Positions 10,305-53,995 of a stretch of 64,000 bases of DNA are shown one piece after another. The number at the start of each line of letters is the position of its first letter. The first letter of the stretch is position 1. Origin of the DNA: Maribacter cobaltidurans. GTDB taxonomy: Bacteria; Bacteroidota; Bacteroidia; Flavobacteriales; Flavobacteriaceae. Location of the stretch: the NCBI RefSeq assembly GCF_002269385.1, contig NZ_CP022957.1, forward strand, positions 4,331,001 to 4,395,000, given 5' to 3'. The position numbers were made by a program, and so were the translations under genes. The notes beneath the pieces were generated by a model. That model saw nothing but the letters and a program-made list of their open reading frames with translations, had not been told where the DNA came from and made no database searches.

Positions 10305-11354
10305 TTGAATCCAAAGAATAAACCCTTAAAAGCTGTTGACTTTTTCTGCTCTGCGGGCGGTGTGACTTGTGGTTTCAAACAAGCTGGTGTAGATGTTATT
10401 GGAGGAATTGACATTGATAAAAGGTGTAAAGAAACCTATGAAAAAAATAACAACGCTAAGTTTTTGCTAGAAGATGTTTCAAAATTGTCAAAACAAAAAC
10501 TTAGTAAATTTTTTGGAATTAGGCGAAATCAAAGAAATCTAATATTTGTTGGGTGTAGTCCTTGTCAATATTATTCAAATATTAAAACAGATAAAACCAA
10601 ATCTCAAAAAACAAGATTACTCTTAGAGGATTTTCAAGAGTTTGTAGATTATTTTAGACCAGGTTATATTTTCGTAGAAAATGTTCCCGGTTTGGATAAA
10701 AACTCTAGTAGTCCCTTGGGTAAATTCAAAAGATTCTTAACAGACAATGGTTATGTGTTTTCGGACGGTGTATTAAATTCAAAATATTATGGTGTTCCAC
10801 AAAATAGACGACGATATGTTCTAGTAGCAACTAGATTAAGAAAAAGCATTGAATTACCTAAACCGAATGAAGGAAATATTAAGACTGTTTATGAGGCAAT
10901 TGGTGATGAAAAAAAATTCCCGCCAATATCCGCGGGTCATATCGACAGCACAGAATTTAGACATAGCTCTGCAAGACTAAGTGAATTAAATCTATTACGC
11001 ATAAGGACTACGGAAGTGGATGGAGGGGATAGGAGAAAGTGGCCAGAAAATCTACTATCTGATAATTATAAAAAACATAAAGGACATTACGATGTCTATG
11101 GAAGAATGTTTTGGTCAAAACCAGCACCAACAATTACAACAAGGTTTAATAGTTATTCAAATGGACGTTACGGACATCCGGTACAAAATAGGGCAATTTC
11201 TTTAAGGGAAGGAGCAACACTTCAATCTTTTCCATTGGATTATAATTTCTATTCAAATAGTCAAAATGATATTGCTAGAATGATTGGCAATGCTGTACCT
11301 CCATTATTGGCAAAGTCAATTGCAGAATCATTTTATCAAAATAATGGAGGATAA
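10305..11354 (+). CDS. DNA (cytosine-5-)-methyltransferase, first gene of AT-rich three-gene cassette
   Basis: 349 aa. TTG start at 10305: an in-frame TAA lies immediately upstream and motif I begins ten residues later, so no other start is possible. Motif I FFCSAGGVTCGF (13-24), motif IV GCSPCQ with catalytic Cys87, motif VI VENVPG (124-129), motif VIII QNRRRYVLVATR, and motifs IX/X ending in MIGNAVPPLLAKSI. The target-recognition region is compressed between about 190 and 310. It transfers a methyl group from SAM to C5 of cytosine in a specific site. It overlaps the next gene by 11 nt, so translation is coupled. No restriction endonuclease gene is recognisable beside it, which is unusual for a Type II enzyme and suggests that the two downstream proteins form the effector side. 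Base composition is clearly more AT-rich than flanking genes, consistent with transfer. Confidence 0.93.
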   Translation: MNPKNKPLKAVDFFCSAGGVTCGFKQAGVDVIGGIDIDKRCKETYEKNNNAKFLLEDVSKLSKQKLSKFFGIRRNQRNLIFVGCSPCQYYSNIKTDKTKSQKTRLLLEDFQEFVDYFRPGYIFVENVPGLDKNSSSPLGKFKRFLTDNGYVFSDGVLNSKYYGVPQNRRRYVLVATRLRKSIELPKPNEGNIKTVYEAIGDEKKFPPISAGHIDSTEFRHSSARLSELNLLRIRTTEVDGGDRRKWPENLLSDNYKKHKGHYDVYGRMFWSKPAPTITTRFNSYSNGRYGHPVQNRAISLREGATLQSFPLDYNFYSNSQNDIARMIGNAVPPLLAKSIAESFYQNNGG

Positions 11355-12558
11355 AATTATCATTGATCAGTTTATTCAAAACCCTTCCGAAGGAAATATG
11401 ATGGCTCTGATTGAAAGAGCAATACAAGATACTTTATCTAATAAGAACATAGCATACTTAGCTAAGAAGCTTGGAGAATCAGGAGAAGTAGTCCAATTAA
11501 AATGTAAAGACTCATTTGTTGCTGATATACCCTCAACAGGAGGCCCTTCGTCATTGAGTACATTAATATGCCCGCTTGTCTTAATGGAGTTAAATTGTCA
11601 AATTCCAAAACTTGGGGTTAAAGGAAGACCAGCAGGTGGAATTGATGTCTTATATCAAATCCCAGATTATAAAATTCATTTTGATAGTAAACAAATTACA
11701 AATATTCTAGAAAGTTCAGGGTATTGTCATTTTATTGTTAGCAAGAAGTATGCTCCATTAGATGCTAGGTTGTTTGATTATCGATCAAAGGTAGGAGCGA
11801 AAGCTATTCCCTCATTAGTTATAGCAAGTATCCTTTCTAAAAAAATTGCAGCAGGGCTCAATTATACTGGTTTAGATGTTAGAGTTGCAGAATACGGAAA
11901 TTTTGGTCATTCATTTGAAGTAGCGGAAAGAAATGCTAACAGATTTATAGCTGTTGCCAAGGATGTAGGAATAAATGCAAAATGTTTTTTAAATGATTTT
12001 AGCATTGAACAACAATCTTATATAGGAAGAGGCGAATCCTTACTAGCCTTACTGATGATTTTCGAGAACAATATGAATTACCTTTTAAAGAGACATCTTA
12101 ATAATTGCATTGGTATGGCACTAAATGTCCCTCCAAGAGAAGCTATAAAGGATAAACAAATTACTACGGAAAATCTTTATCGAAATTTTGGTAAGAACCT
12201 TGAAGATCAAGGAAGTTCAATAGAGAAATTCAATAAAAAAGCAAAAGACATACAAAAACAACATTATAATATTATCAAAAGTAGTGGTAATGGATTCCTA
12301 AAAATCGACATGAAAATGTTGAGAGATACAATAGTAAAATACCAGAACGAATTTCATACAGATTCTTTATTTCCTGACCCTTGTGGAGTAATCCTCTTAA
12401 GAAACTCAAATGATTACATAGTAAAAAATGAATCTATTTTAACATACAGAGCAGAAGGAGAATTCAAAAAGGAATTCGAAAATGAGCTAAGAGCATGCTT
12501 TAGTATTAATTGTACGCCAAAACAAACCGCTTCATATAAAATTCTATCATATGCCTAA
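11344..12558 (+). CDS. Thymidine/pyrimidine-nucleoside-phosphorylase-like protein with degenerate phosphate site
   Basis: 404 aa from ATG 11344, which overlaps the methyltransferase stop by 11 nt; the open frame extends 20 codons upstream inside the methyltransferase gene. Residues about 55-250 follow the DeoA/AMP-phosphorylase (NP-II) fold: DIPSTGGPSSLSTL (61-74) aligns with the KHSTGG phosphate loop, RPAGGIDVLYQIPDY (95-109) with the glycine-rich loop, and YRSKVGAKAIPSLVIASILS (147-166 region) with the base-binding segment. In E. coli DeoA numbering, recalled from memory, Arg171, Ser186 and Lys190 are kept (here Arg148, Ser162, Lys166) while Lys84 and His85 are replaced by Ile62 and Pro63. 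It may therefore bind a pyrimidine base or nucleoside without normal phosphorolysis. The C-terminal 150 residues are unlike DeoA. Overlaps the next gene by 8 nt. Confidence 0.7.
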   Translation: MEDKIIIDQFIQNPSEGNMMALIERAIQDTLSNKNIAYLAKKLGESGEVVQLKCKDSFVADIPSTGGPSSLSTLICPLVLMELNCQIPKLGVKGRPAGGIDVLYQIPDYKIHFDSKQITNILESSGYCHFIVSKKYAPLDARLFDYRSKVGAKAIPSLVIASILSKKIAAGLNYTGLDVRVAEYGNFGHSFEVAERNANRFIAVAKDVGINAKCFLNDFSIEQQSYIGRGESLLALLMIFENNMNYLLKRHLNNCIGMALNVPPREAIKDKQITTENLYRNFGKNLEDQGSSIEKFNKKAKDIQKQHYNIIKSSGNGFLKIDMKMLRDTIVKYQNEFHTDSLFPDPCGVILLRNSNDYIVKNESILTYRAEGEFKKEFENELRACFSINCTPKQTASYKILSYA

Positions 12559-15500
12559 ATATTGCTGCTTTAATTGCCCAGAAAAGGGTCATGATGATAC
12601 AAGAGAATTAGATCATAAATGTCCGAATTGTCAATTTGAATATGGTTTCCCCTTATACTCGCCACCTGCTACAGTTGGGAAATATAAAATAGAAGCTCCA
12701 ATTTCCAGAGGTTTTTATGGCGCAACATACAAAGTGATTGATGAAGTATTGGGAACGGAGTTTGTTCTTAAACTTATTCCGAAAAGCATTTATGAATTAC
12801 ATAATAAAGATTTCTATGCGGAATCTAAAGACCATGCAGAATTAGCAAAGGGCAGCCAATATATAGTAGGAATTACGGGTGCAGAGGAACATAAAGTAAT
12901 TTTTGGAAATGGAGAAGAAGTAGAGTGCTACGTTCAAGTATTAAACTATGTACCAGGAAAACTTTTAATAAAAATACTTGAAAGTGCGAAACCCATAAGT
13001 TCAATTAAGATTACTCAGATATCAATGGACTTATTCAGGATATTAGATGTGTTGAGAAGTAAGAGAAAAAATCACAATGATCTTCATCCAGAAAATATAA
13101 TAATTGAAGAATTAACTCCTGAGAATAGAAGAGCGGGGGAAATCCATAGTACTACAAGAGCAATAGCTATTGATATTGGTTCTCTTACTTCGATTAATAA
13201 AGCCGGAGATTCACCTGATAGACAAGGAGATGTACACTGGGTTGCTGGGTATTTAATTAAGTTAAGTGAAAAACTTTTGGATGATCCGGATAATGTTTCT
13301 GATCAAGATTATAGGCTTGCTAGTTTATTGGAAGATAGGGCGAAACTTCTTTTCCCTGCTGTAGAGCACACCAGAGCACCCAATTTTGATGAAATAATAG
13401 AGGATATAAGAAATTGTTTTAATCAGCAAACACAGCCTTGGGAAGAGCCATTGAAATTACTAAACTTTAATGACACGTATAATGCACAGACTCTTGATCC
13501 TTGGTTTGTTCCTTCATTATTGGTTGACCCAGAAGATCAATGGTTAACGCGAATCTGTGGACATGGGCCATTGGTAATAACTGGAATGAGAGGTTGTGGA
13601 AAGACAATGATGTTAAGAGCTTTGCAATTTCATGCAAGAGCAACTGCTGCCAAATTAAAATTTTCTGGAAATAAAGTTGAACAATTAAACAAGCTTCGTG
13701 AAGAAAATTATATAGGCATATATGTATCATGCAACAAACTATTAGATGAGATTGGTAAGGAAGCAGATGAGGCCTTACATGAGCCATTTTCACGACTTTT
13801 CATAAGGTACGGTATTGAAGCAATAAAAGCAATAAGGCATCTTAATCACATTTCAGAAGATAAGGTTAGAAATGACTATTTCGAAACCTTTATAGAAGTT
13901 TACAATCAACATGTTTCAAATAGTGAATTTCTTAAAGAAGTTACAAGTGAAAGACAACTTGAACAGCGCTTATTAAGTATGATTTATTCTTTGAATAGAG
14001 GAGAATCCAATTATGTTGTCACTGCCAACCCTTCCAATGCTTTTCCTGCTTTAGCTCAAGCAATAAGAAAGAGTTCATCATTATGGACTAATCATTATAT
14101 TTTGTTTCTGTTGGATGATGTTTCCACTAGATATCTTGGAAAAGAGAATATCAAAAATTTACTTTCCTCTTTAATCTTTCAAAGTGAAGAGTGCGCATTT
14201 AAAATTACAAGTGAAGTTCAAACAGTTGAACTGTTGCTTTATTCACCCGGTAAAGTGGAAAAGGCAAAAAAAGGCAGAGATTTTGACACTTTTGATTTGG
14301 GATCGGCAGTTAACGAGAAGATAAGAAACAGAAAAAAGAATGGAGGTAAACATTTCGTCGCAGATATTTTGAACAGAAGGGCCTTTGGAAACGCAAAGCA
14401 TCCATCCGTATCTCCAATTGAAGTTTTAGGAGATACTACATTAGCTTCTATTGCGAAGAGTATTGCTACCAGGGGTGTTAATAAAACGGCAAGAAAGAAA
14501 ATTTATCATGGAATTTCTGCATTGGCAGGAGTTTGTGTAGGTGATATCGGGGATATAATAAATCTTTATGACATGATTATAAAGCACTATGATAATGTTA
14601 AACCGATTCCGCCCGAAAAACAGAACGAATGTTTTCAAGATTTATGTAGTGTAAGGCTTCATGAAGTTAATAGGAGAGGAAGTGATTATAAAGATTTTGC
14701 ATTGTCTTTTGCAAAAGCATCCCATGAATTGTTAATGCAATCAAATAAGGATGGTAGCTCGAGATTAAGACAGTATTACTCAATTTATGTTAGAATTACA
14801 ACGGGTAATACAGAAGAACAGTATGAAAAAATAAGACGGCTACTAGATGCTGGAATTTTCGTTTATTCTGGTGGAGCTAATGCTCCTAGAACACTAGGCA
14901 ACGATACTAATCCCATAAACCAATTTAAGCTTACATATAGAAAATTATATGGTATATCAAACTTAATTGGATTAACGCAAGGTGATCGGTTTGAACTTTC
15001 GGGTGAACAATTAGAAAACTGGCTTAACAATCCTTCTGAGGGCAAAGAAATTCTAATGAAAAATGTTGGAGGAACTAGCTCAAATGTTGATGAAGGCGAT
15101 GACCTTGATGACACGGCGATGTTAGAAACCAAGAAGTTTGAAAAGGTTGATTCAATAAATGAAGGAGTTCAAGGTTCTCTAAATTTTGAAGAGTTTGAAA
15201 AAATTAGATACTATGATTCGAAAACTGTTGAAAACCTTGTTTTAAGTAAAAAACCGAAAAGTACAGAGATTTTATTTGAAGATTTAGAATCAATTAAATT
15301 TGATTATTTAATTGCTGGGCTAGGGTTTGAGGATAGAACGCTGGAATCTATTAGGGAGCTTATAAAGCTTAAACCCCAGAAGGTTTTGCTGGTTAAGTAT
15401 AAAGAAGTTGGAAATACAAATGAAATTATAAAACTTGTTGAGGATGAAAAATTAACTTATGAAATAATTAATTACGAAGTAGTTAAAACAAGTTTTGATG

Positions 15501-16207
15501 TAAGTTCTGGAAATGTATTATGTGATATAACAGGTTTATCTAAATCTTTAATTTTCAATATTGTCAGAAATACTCTTAAATCAAATGGAAAACTTTGGTT
15601 AAGTCATGTTCAAGCTAGTGTTTACTATCCTTTAAATGATGAGATAGATACTTCGCTTAAGAAAATTGAATCAGAAGATAATTATAGCAAATTGGATATT
15701 ATAACGAAGAATGTTATAAAAGGTGAGAAGGGGCCATACGAGATATATGATTTATTAATGTCTGACACTGATGAGTCTAAAAGAAATGTATTAATAGGGT
15801 TCTCAAATTCTAAGTACGAAAGATTATTCAAGATTTTAGAAAAAAGGGAATTTGACATGATAAGAATTGTATTTCCCCAGGTTGACAGTATGAGAGGGCA
15901 ATTAGCCAGATTAGCTTCTGAAGTTATTTCTAATGCTTATTCTAATGCGGAGTGCTATGGTTTTGAATCGAACGATTTAGATGCCATGCTTGCTTTTCTG
16001 ACAGAACAATATCAATTACACTATATAGATCAGAATTTCAACTTTGAACTCGCACTAACAGGTTCGAAGAGACATACTGTAGCATGCGCAGCCATTAGCG
16101 CCGCTTTTAAAATTTCACATTGTTGGTATTCAAAACCTTCAAATTGGGATATTGCTAAATTTTCAAAAGGAATTGGAGAAAAATCATATTTTAAAATTGA
16201 GTTATAG
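12551..16207 (+). CDS. Zinc ribbon - protein kinase - ORC/STAND-like ATPase - tandem CARF-like multidomain protein
   Basis: 1218 aa. (1) Zinc ribbon, C6-x2-C9 and C24-x2-C27. (2) Protein-kinase domain about 43-290: Gly loop SRGFYGATYKV (52-62), Lys74, catalytic HNDLHPEN (175-182), metal-binding IDIGS with Asp208; all key residues are present, so it is probably active. (3) P-loop ATPase about 310-700: Walker A TGMRGCGKT (344-352), Walker B ILFLLDDVS (517-525), resembling ORC/Cdc6- or STAND-like NTPases. (4) Linker, acidic around 847-860. (5) Two Rossmann-like units: 918-1028 beginning YLIAGLGFEDR and containing CDITGLSKS (991-999), and 1079-1200 beginning VLIGFSNSK and containing LALTGSKRHT (1167-1176). 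These TG-x-K motifs resemble the nucleotide-sensing TGGTK loop of CARF domains; that link is inference. It overlaps the preceding gene by 8 nt. Probably a phosphorylating sensor or effector of a defence cassette. Confidence 0.75.
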   Translation: MPKYCCFNCPEKGHDDTRELDHKCPNCQFEYGFPLYSPPATVGKYKIEAPISRGFYGATYKVIDEVLGTEFVLKLIPKSIYELHNKDFYAESKDHAELAKGSQYIVGITGAEEHKVIFGNGEEVECYVQVLNYVPGKLLIKILESAKPISSIKITQISMDLFRILDVLRSKRKNHNDLHPENIIIEELTPENRRAGEIHSTTRAIAIDIGSLTSINKAGDSPDRQGDVHWVAGYLIKLSEKLLDDPDNVSDQDYRLASLLEDRAKLLFPAVEHTRAPNFDEIIEDIRNCFNQQTQPWEEPLKLLNFNDTYNAQTLDPWFVPSLLVDPEDQWLTRICGHGPLVITGMRGCGKTMMLRALQFHARATAAKLKFSGNKVEQLNKLREENYIGIYVSCNKLLDEIGKEADEALHEPFSRLFIRYGIEAIKAIRHLNHISEDKVRNDYFETFIEVYNQHVSNSEFLKEVTSERQLEQRLLSMIYSLNRGESNYVVTANPSNAFPALAQAIRKSSSLWTNHYILFLLDDVSTRYLGKENIKNLLSSLIFQSEECAFKITSEVQTVELLLYSPGKVEKAKKGRDFDTFDLGSAVNEKIRNRKKNGGKHFVADILNRRAFGNAKHPSVSPIEVLGDTTLASIAKSIATRGVNKTARKKIYHGISALAGVCVGDIGDIINLYDMIIKHYDNVKPIPPEKQNECFQDLCSVRLHEVNRRGSDYKDFALSFAKASHELLMQSNKDGSSRLRQYYSIYVRITTGNTEEQYEKIRRLLDAGIFVYSGGANAPRTLGNDTNPINQFKLTYRKLYGISNLIGLTQGDRFELSGEQLENWLNNPSEGKEILMKNVGGTSSNVDEGDDLDDTAMLETKKFEKVDSINEGVQGSLNFEEFEKIRYYDSKTVENLVLSKKPKSTEILFEDLESIKFDYLIAGLGFEDRTLESIRELIKLKPQKVLLVKYKEVGNTNEIIKLVEDEKLTYEIINYEVVKTSFDVSSGNVLCDITGLSKSLIFNIVRNTLKSNGKLWLSHVQASVYYPLNDEIDTSLKKIESEDNYSKLDIITKNVIKGEKGPYEIYDLLMSDTDESKRNVLIGFSNSKYERLFKILEKREFDMIRIVFPQVDSMRGQLARLASEVISNAYSNAECYGFESNDLDAMLAFLTEQYQLHYIDQNFNFELALTGSKRHTVACAAISAAFKISHCWYSKPSNWDIAKFSKGIGEKSYFKIEL

Positions 16208-16258: not shown

Positions 16259-19200
16259 ATGAAAACCACCAACCTAAAAACCGCTCTTTGCATCCTTTGC
16301 CTTTTGGTAGCTATTTCGTCCCTGGCCCAAGTAGATCCATCCTATTACCAAGATCTGGAATACAGGATGATCGGGCCCTTCCGTGGGGGTCGGACCGTAG
16401 GGGCGGTGGGCGTGCCTTCCCAACCCAATGTATTCTTTATTGGGGTAAACAATGGCGGAGTATGGAAAACGGATGATTATGGCCGTACCTGGAACCCTAT
16501 TTTTGATGACGTGCCCACAGGTTCCGTGGGGGATTTGGCGGTTTCGCCCTCGGACCCCAATGTGATATATGTCGGTACCGGCGAAGGGTTGCACCGGCCG
16601 GACCTTGCCGTGGGTGATGGGATGTTCAAATCCACCAATGGCGGTAAAAGCTGGGAACATATCGGGCTGGAAGATATCCAACAAGTGAGTCGGGTCATCG
16701 TACACCCTACCAATCCGGATATCGTGTACGTCGCCGGTTTGGGCCATCCGTATGGGGCCAATGAAATGCGGGGCATTTTTAAATCCACCGATGGCGGAAA
16801 AACATGGAAAAAGACCTTGTATAGCAACCCCAATACCGGGGCGATCCAAGTGGAGCTAGATCCTAATAATCCTAACATCCTGTTCGCCGCGATGTGGGAA
16901 CATCAGGAAGGACCTTGGGAGAACGCCAAATTCTCCGGCCCCCACAGCGGACTCTACAAATCCACGGATGGCGGGGACACCTGGCGACAACTAACCAACG
17001 GACTCCCCGGGGCGGAAGAGGGTTTGGGCAGGGTAGGGGTGGCGCTATCGGCCAGCAATTCCAAACGGATGTATGCCACGGTCGATGCCCGGGAAAAGGG
17101 CGGAGTCTATACCAGTGCGGATGCCGGCGAAAGCTGGAGCCTGGTCACCACGGAAAACCGATTATGGGGCCGGGGCAGTGACTTTGCCGAAATCAAGGTG
17201 CATCCCAAGGACGAAAATGTAGTTTTTGTGGGGAATGTAGCCTCATATAAATCCAAGGACGGCGGTAAAACGTGGACCTCCATCAAAGGCGCACCGGGCG
17301 GGGACGACTACCACAGGATATGGATCAATCCCCTGCACCCGGAAATCATGCTTTTTGCCGCCGATCAGGGTGCCGTAATCACGGTAAATGGTGGGGACAC
17401 GTGGAGCTCTTGGTACAACCAGCCCACGTCACAATTGTATCATGTGACCACGGACAACCAATTTCCGTATTGGGTGTACGGTGGCCAACAGGAAAGTGGG
17501 GCCATTGGCATTGCCAGCAGGAGCAATGGGGGACAGATTTCGTTTCGAGAATTTATGGGCGTGGGTGCCGACGAATATGCCTATGTCGCTCCGGACCCAC
17601 TGGACAACAACATCGTTTATGGCGGACGCGTCATAAAGTTCAACAAGAAAACAGGACAATCGCAATATGTGGGTCCCGAAGTGCTGCGTTCCCGGGATTT
17701 TCGATACCTGCGTACGATGCCCCTGTTATTTCATCCAGCCAATGATAGTATGTTATTATTCGGTACGAATGTGATTTGGAAAACCCATGATGGAGGACAG
17801 CATTGGGAACAGATCAGTGGCGACCTTACCCGAGCCCGACCCGAAGTGCCGGCCAGTGTAGGCGATTACAAAACCGATGCCATGGAAAATATGCCGCAAC
17901 GCGCCATTGTCTACGCTATTGGACCTTCGCCCTTGGACAAAGACATTATTTGGGCGGGTACGGACGATGGCCTCATTCAGGTGACCCGGGATGGGGGCAA
18001 CACCTGGACCAACGTAACACCGACCTCGATTACCTCCTGGGATAAAATTTCACAGATCGATGCCGGTCATTTTGATGCCGGAACGGCCTATGTGGCGGTG
18101 AATGCCATACGGAAGGATGATATGCAACCCCATATTTACAAAACCCACGACTTTGGGAAAACCTGGGAGGAAGTCGTTAACGGGATGAATCCCTCCGGAC
18201 CGGTAAACGTGGTGCGTGAAGACCCAAAACAAAAAGGATTGCTGTATGCCGGAACGGAGCGTGAGGTCTATTTTTCGGCCGATGATGGGGCTACTTGGCA
18301 ATCCCTTCGCATGAACATGCCCGCATCTTCCATTCGGGATTTGGTGGTACACGAAAATGATCTGGTCATCGGGACGCACGGTCGCTCCATTTGGATTTTG
18401 GACGATGTAAGTCTGCTGCGGGAATTGGCCAGTCTATCCGACCAAAACGCCTATTTATTTTCGCCCAGCGATGCCTACCGAGTACGGTTCAATATGTTTA
18501 GCGACACGCCTTTGCCCCCGGAAGAACCTACGGGAGAGAATCCGCCGGATGGTGCCTTGATCGACTATTATCTAGGAGCCGATGCCCAAAAGGTAGAACT
18601 CAACATATTGGATTCGGAAGGCGGGTTGGTCAACAGCTTTTCCGGTGACGATAGGGCGGAAGTCTTGGATACGACCCAAATGCAGCATCCCACGTATTGG
18701 ATACGTCCGTTCAAAGGCTTGTCCGGCGAACCCGGCCACCACCGATTCGTTTGGAATCTACGGTATAAGGAACCGCAGGGGGCCAATCGCGCTTTTGCCA
18801 TTGCGGCCGTACAGTACAATACGCCTAGCGGACCCGAAGGACCTTTTGTATCTCCGGGAACGTATAAAGTGCAATTGAAGGTCGATGGGGAAATTTTGGA
18901 AAAAAACATCACGGTAAAACTGGATCCACGTTCCGAAATGAGCGAAGAAGCCCTTGCCCTACAAACCGACCTGTCCCTGCAAACCTATACCGATTATGGG
19001 AGATTGCAGGAGATTCGGGAAGCTATTGATGCCAGCTCGGCAAAAGGTAGAAAGAAGGAAAAAATGTTAGCCTTTCGAGGGGATGGCGCCCCGGAGGATG
19101 GCGATTTGATTTATGGAAGTATTTATATGTCGGAGCTGGAGGACGAAACGCTAGTCGGACTGCAATCCAAATTGCTCTTTTTGCTCAACGTCTTGCAAAA

Positions 19201-19300
19201 AACCGATGCCCAACCAACCGCCAAAACCCAAGAAGCCGCTGCCCAATTGCATACACGCGTGGGGGAGATGAAAACGCTTTGGGAATCGAAGTATAAATAA
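16259..19300 (+). CDS. Secreted Asp-box (BNR/VPS10-sortilin-like) beta-propeller protein
   Basis: 1013 aa with a signal peptide ending SSLAQVDP. The first 700 residues contain many Asp-box loops of the S-x-D-x-G-x-T-W type (KTDDYGRTW, KSTNGGKSW, KSTDGGKTW, KSKDGGKTW, KTHDFGKTW), the signature of sialidase/sortilin-type ten-bladed propellers. The C-terminal part is a beta-sandwich-like region with NLRYKEPQGA followed by a helical tail. Proteins of this type are widespread in Bacteroidota and often labelled glycosyl hydrolase or sialidase, but the sialidase Arg triad and FRIP motif were not seen, so no enzymatic activity is claimed. Composition switches back to GC-richer DNA here, marking the right edge of the islet. 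It probably has its own promoter in the 51-bp gap or beyond. Confidence 0.88.
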   Translation: MKTTNLKTALCILCLLVAISSLAQVDPSYYQDLEYRMIGPFRGGRTVGAVGVPSQPNVFFIGVNNGGVWKTDDYGRTWNPIFDDVPTGSVGDLAVSPSDPNVIYVGTGEGLHRPDLAVGDGMFKSTNGGKSWEHIGLEDIQQVSRVIVHPTNPDIVYVAGLGHPYGANEMRGIFKSTDGGKTWKKTLYSNPNTGAIQVELDPNNPNILFAAMWEHQEGPWENAKFSGPHSGLYKSTDGGDTWRQLTNGLPGAEEGLGRVGVALSASNSKRMYATVDAREKGGVYTSADAGESWSLVTTENRLWGRGSDFAEIKVHPKDENVVFVGNVASYKSKDGGKTWTSIKGAPGGDDYHRIWINPLHPEIMLFAADQGAVITVNGGDTWSSWYNQPTSQLYHVTTDNQFPYWVYGGQQESGAIGIASRSNGGQISFREFMGVGADEYAYVAPDPLDNNIVYGGRVIKFNKKTGQSQYVGPEVLRSRDFRYLRTMPLLFHPANDSMLLFGTNVIWKTHDGGQHWEQISGDLTRARPEVPASVGDYKTDAMENMPQRAIVYAIGPSPLDKDIIWAGTDDGLIQVTRDGGNTWTNVTPTSITSWDKISQIDAGHFDAGTAYVAVNAIRKDDMQPHIYKTHDFGKTWEEVVNGMNPSGPVNVVREDPKQKGLLYAGTEREVYFSADDGATWQSLRMNMPASSIRDLVVHENDLVIGTHGRSIWILDDVSLLRELASLSDQNAYLFSPSDAYRVRFNMFSDTPLPPEEPTGENPPDGALIDYYLGADAQKVELNILDSEGGLVNSFSGDDRAEVLDTTQMQHPTYWIRPFKGLSGEPGHHRFVWNLRYKEPQGANRAFAIAAVQYNTPSGPEGPFVSPGTYKVQLKVDGEILEKNITVKLDPRSEMSEEALALQTDLSLQTYTDYGRLQEIREAIDASSAKGRKKEKMLAFRGDGAPEDGDLIYGSIYMSELEDETLVGLQSKLLFLLNVLQKTDAQPTAKTQEAAAQLHTRVGEMKTLWESKYK

Positions 19301-51038: not shown

Positions 51039-53933
51039 CTACACGGCCAGACCGAGGTTTTTGTCCATATCAAGCTCAAACTTCCCGTAAGGGTTCACAT
51101 GTGCATGTATCAACGGGCTCAATGCTCGGTAATCTTCTTTTGAAAACCTGTCCATCCATCCGTTCTCGGAAACCACACGTTGGATCATAAGTGTGTTCAC
51201 ATAGACTAAACAGTTCTGGAGCAGATGAAGTGCAAGTACGGATAGTTCCTGTTCTTCCAATCGGTTCGAGGAAACTTCACCACTTTTTCCAAAAAAAATG
51301 AAACCGTTGGCAGAGTTCCAATTCTCTATCACGTTCAGCCCCCCGTGTATTTCACGTCTGATGTCCCCATCGGCAAGGTACCTGCAAAGGAATATCGTTT
51401 TCACCGCCTTTCCTAGTTCCTGCAGGGCCCTGTATGTCGGATGGCTCTCGTTACCCCTGGTGAACCTCTTTAAAATTGATTCAGGGTCGGCGGTACCCTG
51501 TTCCAAAGCAGCGGTATATTTTACCATTTCATCATATTGCCTCTCGATGATTTCCCATTTGATACCTCTATTGAGTATCGGTAAAAGGTTTTTAAGTTCT
51601 TTCTTTAGGGAAATATCGGGTAGGTAAAGTTTCTGGGAGGCAATATTCTTCAACCTTGGCATTAGTTCAAACCCCAAGAGCTTGCAAAAAGCAAACGCGA
51701 CCTCACTCTGACCGTGGGTGTCCACAAACTGTTTTTCCACCTTCATATCGGTACAATGCTTGAGTACACCTTCTATCATATTGGCCACTTCTGATGAGGA
51801 ACATTTCTTTAGTTGGGAATAGATGCAGGTGGATCGCGTGTCCACGTGCCAATAGATCATAACGCCCCTTCCTCCATACCGGATGTGCCATTCCGCCATC
51901 AGGTTCTGGTCCCAGGACCCGAACTTTTTGGAATCGGAGGCACATGAGGTCGTTGCCTCGCCCCAGAGTTTGGTGTCCTTTACGGAGAATACCCCATTGG
52001 CCACTTCCCTAATGGCACTGCGCAGGGAATCTTTGTGTACATATACATTCTTTACATGACGGAGCTCCTTGTAGCTTACATTATTACCTGACGCTATTCT
52101 TTTAAGTCCCATATTGGTTCCAAGCCCATAAAGAACCAACAATAGTCTTTTTCTGAGCTGTTCCGGTGTCAAACGTTCAGATGTCCGGATACTCTTGAAC
52201 AATTTTGTGAACCCGGACCAACTGTCCGCTTCGCGAAGGATTTCCAAAAGTGATGTCATTGGCCATCTGGATTGTACATCTCCCTTGAGCGCATTTATGT
52301 TCGGTGGGTCCACGAGCGGGTCCATGGGGGAGAGAACAATGTTCTTGATGCCGCTTTGCCGTAATCTTACATACTTGTTGGACGGCAAGTTTTCATTTAA
52401 CGTTCTCAGTGCGATTTCCATTTCTTCCTTTAATCCCTTGGTAAATTCCACGGGGTCGTTCTCTACGCCCAACCGGTCGTAATAAAATTTCCTGTTCATA
52501 TTGAAGTCTTTAGGTACATCCTCATCGGGATTACGGTACCTATCGGCTCCTTCAACCCATATTTCCTTGCAACGGAGCCTCTTTCTCAAAGCTTCAAGTA
52601 CTGCTATTTCATAGTCTATCCGATCCATATCGCCTTTGCCCATCCCTTTGACAAGTTTTACAAAGCTGGGCTTGATGATGTCCGAAGTGGGAATCGAGTC
52701 ATCGTCCATTGAGAATTTTGAGTTTGGCATAGGGTTCTCCAACAGCCAATCTATCGCGTCCAAAATAGGTACGTGCAGATCGTTGTTCGACCTGAAGGTA
52801 AGACTGCCCAATATTTTCGGGACCATTCTCCGATAATGTGAGGAATAACTGGAACGCACCAATCCATGGATTTCATTTTTGAAACCCTTACCGGAATATT
52901 TATACTCCTTGACGATATCGGAAAGCTTCGATTTATTTGCAATGGGAAATATTACCCTATTGATGGTTCCTTTAGGGTCCTTCAATGATGCCTCGGCGAT
53001 TCGGGCCAATATTGTCGTCTTACCATAAACGCGTTTCAATTCCTTTACCAGTGCGGTCTCTACTTTCTTTTTTGCCTTCTTTGATAGTTTTCCCACAATG
53101 AGAATGAAAAGATCCACAAGGTCATCTATGATTTTTTGCCTTCTGGAAAAAAGAAAGACACCCATCAGGGTATCCCTAATATATGGTGGGTGTCGCCTTA
53201 TCTCCCAAGCGGATTCCGAAGCTATTCTTTTGTACAATCTTTCCCTAATCTTGGGATGTATCCCACCGATTTCTTGAATAGGAATTGCGCAATCCTCTAT
53301 AAATGCCAATTTGTCCAGCTCATCAAGAACGGTTAGAAGGCCAACACGTCCAGGATCTGAACGAAGCCAAGTAAACGAACCCTTTTCGCCTGGATCGCTT
53401 CTCAGGCAACGGTCGAATAATTCCGTTGTACCCCTTCCCAACAATGATGCAACCTGATCGAAAAATCTGTTTTCAAATTTCGAGAGTGCAGTGGAAATTA
53501 TACGGGAAAGTACTTTTTCCGTAGGAGCTGAAAGTTTATGTTCAAAGAACCATTTAAGGCAAACATCTTCGATTTCTGTTTTTGTACTTCCAAAGGGAAG
53601 GATGTCGTCAATCAAAAAATCGATAAGATCTTCGCGGTGTTCTTCATTTGTTTTTTCAACGCCCAAGAATTTTAATATTTCTTTACGATGACGTTCTGCG
53701 GTTCTTTGCGACCAATCATACTCATTTAAAATAGATTCATTGGTCTCCAACTGTTCACTTAAATGGGAAACCAGACCACTTACCAAACTTGATTTACTTT
53801 TAGGAAATGAACCTGTGGATAAATATTGTTTCAATTGGACTGCAAAAGCCAGTTTATGGGGAAAGCTTTTATTCTTCAACAATATTGACTCATCGTAGGT
53901 CAGGTACCAATCCTGATACTGGTTTTGTTCCAT
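51039..53933 (-). CDS. tnpA: Tn3-family transposase TnpA
   Basis: 964 aa from ATG 53933 ([11 protein letters not shown]); an upstream TTG gives 969. N-terminal DUF4158-like DNA-binding part ([32 protein letters not shown]). The C-terminal DDE domain contains [20 protein letters not shown], first Asp region; [20 protein letters not shown], second Asp; and [20 protein letters not shown] with the Glu, and ends [17 protein letters not shown], as Tn3 transposases do. Length (about 960-1000) is normal and no frameshift is seen, so the element may still be active. Located immediately inside the right inverted repeat. Confidence 0.95.
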
Positions 53934-53995
53934 GTGTTTTTGCCACAAATTAGCATATTTATCTTAATACGCTATATTTGAGATAAATTCGATAT

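Follow-up and report, generated by a model that had tools for sequence, protein, structure and literature searches.

A rare cassette of a predicted C5-cytosine methyltransferase, a phosphorylase-like protein and a CARF-family kinase-ATPase in Maribacter cobaltidurans

CARF sensors are known mainly as effectors of type III CRISPR systems, in which they are fed by Cas10. A small family joining a Zn ribbon, a kinase, an AAA ATPase and CARF was described in 2014 by Makarova et al. (PMC4012209), and type 2 BREX contains the kinase PglW, with an inactive STAND domain, and the ATPase BrxD (PMC12839542). Here we analyze a three-gene cassette encoding a predicted C5-cytosine DNA methyltransferase (MTase), a thymidine-phosphorylase-like (TP-like) protein and a giant multidomain protein, located in a window of 64,000 nucleotides from Maribacter cobaltidurans (contig NZ_CP022957.1, positions 4,331,001 to 4,395,000). 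The cassette is real, conserved and rare, its recurrence is far above chance, and the trio likely forms a virus alarm that would stop the growth of the infected cell.

The giant belongs to a family already named but, as far as found, uncharacterised: the PADLOC model PDLC01925 (CARF6--CARF_STK_AAA) covers its residues 1-1217 with 1869.6 bits, in the domain order given in PMC4012209. The main text of that paper mentions neither 'phosphorylase' nor 'methyltransferase', and names CARF and wHTH where the giant's model has two Rossmann halves. The initial annotation, made from the sequence alone, had recognised no named system in the combination, which holds for the trio, as nothing was found among the literature listed (including passages of PMC12839542, PMC4012209, PMC12458937, PMC11514479, PMC9523054 and PMC2292703), but not for the giant; new are the rewired phosphorylase as its partner and its specific link to C5. 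Can1 (6sce), a tandem-CARF nuclease of type III CRISPR, differs in that the giant has a kinase and an ATPase rather than a nuclease, and in that the host genome of the cassette lacks a Cas10 palm match. Methylation, a kinase and an ATPase are shared with type 2 BREX (PglW/BrxD; PMC12839542) and with MADS (NCBIfam model name). No PglZ, BrxC, PglX or other BREX family was among the matches listed for the three proteins (for the MTase, the best 25 of 58), and the giant's kinase is only weakly similar to MAD6 (31 bits against a cutoff of 460). The MTase chemistry of type 2 BREX and MADS also differs from C5. Genes of known systems with a C5 MTase core accompany the TP-giant pair in several of the loci described below (e.g. 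L001, L003 and L015; L numbers are our own), whereas clustering with the genes of the loci found none near the window cassette (5-22 kb); the main texts on those systems lack 'phosphorylase', and contain 'kinase' only within the name GHKL (2008 paper).

Residue conservation in the three proteins

The assignment of the first gene to the C5-cytosine MTases, predicted from sequence and already made in the initial annotation, agrees with matches to PF00145 (177 bits) and TIGR00675 (135 bits, cutoff 101). A pattern search found the motifs FCSAGG, PCQ, ENV, QNRRR and GNAVP all present; the catalytic motifs are thus intact, as in type II restriction-modification MTases. As had also been noted, no restriction enzyme was recognised: neither a cognate endonuclease beside the MTase (unrecognised endonucleases exist; the neighbours are a short-chain dehydrogenase, the TP-like gene and, past the giant, a 1013-aa protein not scanned for domains) nor any nuclease among or beside the three genes, with the same limit for the 1013-aa protein.

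The TP-like protein has the pyrimidine-nucleoside-phosphorylase (PyNP) fold and matches TIGR02644 (4e-28), in line with its first description as a nucleoside-phosphorylase relative, although its 98 bits lie far under the cutoff of 409. It differs from pyrimidine-nucleoside and thymidine phosphorylases in falling under the family cutoffs, in its replaced phosphate site and in its separate clade. The base-site residues R147, S162 and K166 are retained, with I62, G91 and G99 now at the phosphate-site positions. K81, S110 and T120, which we take to be the phosphate-site residues of PyNP, are substituted in 42, 40 and 42, respectively, of 42 TP-like sequences. These proteins form a clade apart from ordinary phosphorylases, scoring at least 261 bits, against at most 133 bits for other phosphorylases. 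The possibility that gene 2 encodes a housekeeping enzyme of basic metabolism was checked and rejected on this residue pattern and score gap, and the loss of the phosphate-site residues disfavours a salvage role. Apparently, a phosphorylase fold has been recruited as a non-phosphorolytic partner; as far as the literature was searched, no description of this fold as a defence component was found.

The kinase/ATPase/CARF-like architecture first proposed for the 1218-aa giant was recovered by matches to Pkinase (1e-08), ORC-CDC6-like (4e-28) and PDLC01925. In a tree of 52 of the 60 giants, including that of the window (eight shorter than 1100 aa were dropped), the kinase residues K74, E91, H175-N-D177, N182 and D208 and the ATPase residues G345, R347, G350, K351, T352, D522 and D523 are invariant in all 52 proteins. 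The kinase domain is matched by PD-T4-6 models of the defence library, at no more than 41 bits, and kinases have precedents there as antiphage components. A CARF Rossmann fold was found in the C-terminal tail, whose predicted model consists of two Rossmann halves; the top Foldseek ranks were uninformative for this model, and a second look with VIA-align was informative. An internal duplication of the halves was rejected, as their profile comparison was negative.

Recurrence and association with C5 methyltransferases

A scan of 84,980 species genomes, made with two short patterns taken from the giant, yielded at least 59 giant loci; they come from numerous bacterial phyla, and a few from archaeal bins. 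The TP-like gene is present in 42 of the 59 (partial in L057) and absent from 16, where tblastn found no relics of it, L038 lacking upstream DNA. The gap to the giant gene is at most 3 nt, or the genes overlap, in 38 of 41 TP loci (the TP-like gene of L026 was lost to an overlapping open reading frame, ORF), and the 8-nt overlap of the window is common to 11 of the 41; gene starts were set at the first possible codon, which makes longer overlaps unreliable. Of the 59 fetched loci, 46 contain a C5 MTase, some contigs ending early. The initial annotation had asked whether the genes co-occur in distant genomes, and a contiguous same-strand MTase-TP-giant trio was indeed found in 13 of the 59 loci, spread over Thermodesulfobacteriota, Acidobacteriota, Nitrospinota, Zixiibacteriota, Actinomycetota, Fibrobacterota, Armatimonadota and, presumably, Bacteroidota; these eight phyla were taken from record titles and taxonomy, and as several records are metagenome bins, single assignments may be wrong.

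The cassette is rare and patchily distributed, as transferred genes are. Among 395 genomes of the phylum, the giant (E 1e-60) and the TP-clade gene occur only in the window's own genome, the other 168 genomes matching the TP-like protein at E 1e-20 holding ordinary phosphorylases (at most 133 bits). Likewise, in a class-wide sample around L018 the TP-clade gene was found in one of 385 genomes, that of L018 itself. Loss of the TP-like gene is dispersed across the giant tree. Plasmids yielded one giant and no TP-clade copy (best 79 bits). In the Pedobacter loci L002 (8748-9995) and L004 (6728-7984), a putAbiC abortive-infection gene, identified by Pfam in L002 and as a close relative of that gene in L004, sits immediately upstream of the giant, in the position of the TP-like gene.

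The distance to MTases was determined in 40 of the 59 genomes, hand-chosen and mostly with longer loci (~183 Mb), which hold 86 PF00145 matches, split genes included. A match lies inside the locus in 34 of them, and 13.6-14.1 kb from the giant locus, edge to edge, in L026, L035, L052 and L053, so that a C5 MTase is found within 15 kb in 38 of 40 genomes against ~0.8 expected by density. N6/N4 MTases, counted by PF02384 (74 matches) and PF01555 (100 matches), other adenine-methyltransferase families not being searched, occur within 15 kb in 3 of 40 (L021, L048 and L059) against 1.4 expected. We infer that C5 chemistry, or C5-based loci, matter to the cassette. Across 32 loci the giant tree agrees better with that of the TP-like protein (r 0.81) than with that of the MTase (r 0.45), and since their genes overlap and their trees agree, TP and giant are regarded as one unit.

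Possible function and alternative explanations

We propose that the TP-like protein and the giant would form a complex in which nucleotide sensing, by the CARF tail and the TP-like pocket, would control an ATPase-kinase switch whose output may be growth arrest coupled to the C5-methylated genome. Neither the Cas10 palm (PF22335) that goes with type III CRISPR CARF effectors nor the SMODS CD-NTase (PF18144) that supplies the signal of CBASS was found in the host with one Pfam model each; both systems were rejected as signal source on this ground. Among 41 genomes with the giant, weak Cas10 palm matches occur in three (27-34 bits; none in 38) and SMODS in six (none in 35). A signal other than the products of these enzymes is therefore expected in the host; among the candidates we favour nucleotides from DNA breakdown. 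In genomes mostly without such matches, a tandem-CARF-like protein with a kinase is tied to one kind of DNA mark, its signal likely coming from elsewhere. Our confidence in the mechanism is moderate to low, and the explanation as a whole, the best we have, is held tentatively; the interpretation in the initial annotation, in which the MTase marks self DNA and the giant senses phage DNA or a nucleotide signal, is partly supported.

Several observations weigh against the alarm. The TP-like gene is missing in 16 of 58 loci and therefore cannot be essential to every version. The genome of L018 has no C5 MTase match and the nearest in that of L002 is ~42 kb away; in 12 contiguous-trio loci the giant agrees about equally with the TP-like protein (r 0.70) and the MTase (r 0.64), so that the looser tie of the MTase is visible only in the wider set. 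The two CARF-like halves share no sequence similarity, and Foldseek hits to the C-terminal model were headed by unrelated proteins, with Csm6 first at rank 23. Moreover, searches for two families revealed no source of a cyclic-nucleotide signal in the host, no recognised defence gene lies beside the window cassette, and the phages and viral contigs searched held no copy of it.

In a more specific version of the alarm, chromosomal 5-methylcytosine made by the MTase would be a tripwire, the TP-like protein sensing 5-methyl-pyrimidine nucleotides freed as a virus destroys host DNA and signalling to the tandem-CARF kinase for cell shutdown. A mark acting as tripwire and not as nuclease shield would account for the giant accompanying C5 rather than N6/N4 MTases, but the arginine at the PyNP R168 position is kept, presumably in a role suited more to a 4-keto base (thymine, uracil) than to cytosine, and the loci without TP-like gene also speak against this version, which we consider very unlikely. 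A guardian of C5 restriction-modification loci, in which the TP-giant add-on fires if the co-resident system fails or is lost and the cassette of the window is a leftover whose MTase stands alone, is rather unlikely, given that 22 of the 46 MTase-bearing loci lack the screened companion gene types except Vsr (other nuclease families were unscreened and some contigs end early); the solo-MTase configuration therefore recurs.

Direct sensing resembling BREX would have the ORC-CDC6-like ATPase and DNA-binding parts read unmethylated sites in incoming DNA, with the MTase protecting self, the kinase blocking the invader and the CARF-like tail only tuning. An MTase, a kinase and an ORC/STAND ATPase are also the theme of type 2 BREX (PMC12839542), and the checked P-loop residues are invariant in 52 of 52 giants; as such sensing predicts neither the C5-only link nor the TP-like partner, we regard it as unlikely. 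Least probable of all is that the genes merely form a mobile unit together with C5 MTases, the TP-like protein and kinase adjusting nucleoside metabolism or MTase expression outside defence. The fold of a salvage enzyme, the low GC and the different gene at this site in a relative would fit, but the lost phosphate-site residues argue against salvage, defence genes lie nearby in other genomes, and the giant belongs to the defence library.

Genomic setting

The ORF coordinates (Table 1) bear out the three overlapping plus-strand genes originally described (11 nt between MTase and TP-like genes, 8 nt between TP-like and giant genes), and the AT-rich islet proved equally sound, with 31-35% GC over 10-16 kb against 45-48% in the left and 45-54% in the right 4 kb. 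No RNA families were found, and promoter and terminator patterns were no better than chance.

Table 1. Coordinates of the cassette genes, the domains of the giant and the gene at the corresponding site of a relative
Feature	Position	Strand	Description
MTase gene	10305..11354	+	349 aa, TTG start; C5-cytosine DNA methyltransferase (predicted)
TP-like gene	11344..12558	+	404 aa, in-frame ATG; pyrimidine-nucleoside-phosphorylase fold
Giant gene	12551..16207	+	1218 aa; cysteine cluster, protein kinase, ORC-CDC6-like ATPase, tandem CARF-like tail
N-terminal cysteine cluster	12551..12655	+	residues 1-35, Zn-ribbon-like by eye and alignment
Protein kinase domain	12683..13258	+	residues 45-236 (K74, E91, H175-N-D177, N182, D208)
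ORC-CDC6-like AAA+ ATPase	13463..14782	+	residues 305-744 (P-loop GMRGCGKT, LLDD)
First CARF-like Rossmann half	15299..15631	+	~residues 917-1027 (GFE, DITG)
Second CARF-like Rossmann half	15779..16150	+	~residues 1077-1200 (LTGSK)
Site gene in genome G823	L112 12144-14024		626 aa, hydrolase-like by eye, GC 46-54% (normal)

The left neighbour of the cassette encodes the short-chain dehydrogenase. In a genome of the same genus (G823), the same flanking gene pair (90% and 91% DNA identity) encloses a single gene in place of the cassette. The right neighbour (16259-19300), encoding the 1013-aa protein, has many paralogues: at E 1e-100 it gives 9 matches in its own genome, and 12 relatives of the same genus hold 5-11 each. 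A Tn3-family transposase (51042-53948, minus strand; PF01526, 448 bits) lies ~35 kb from the cassette.
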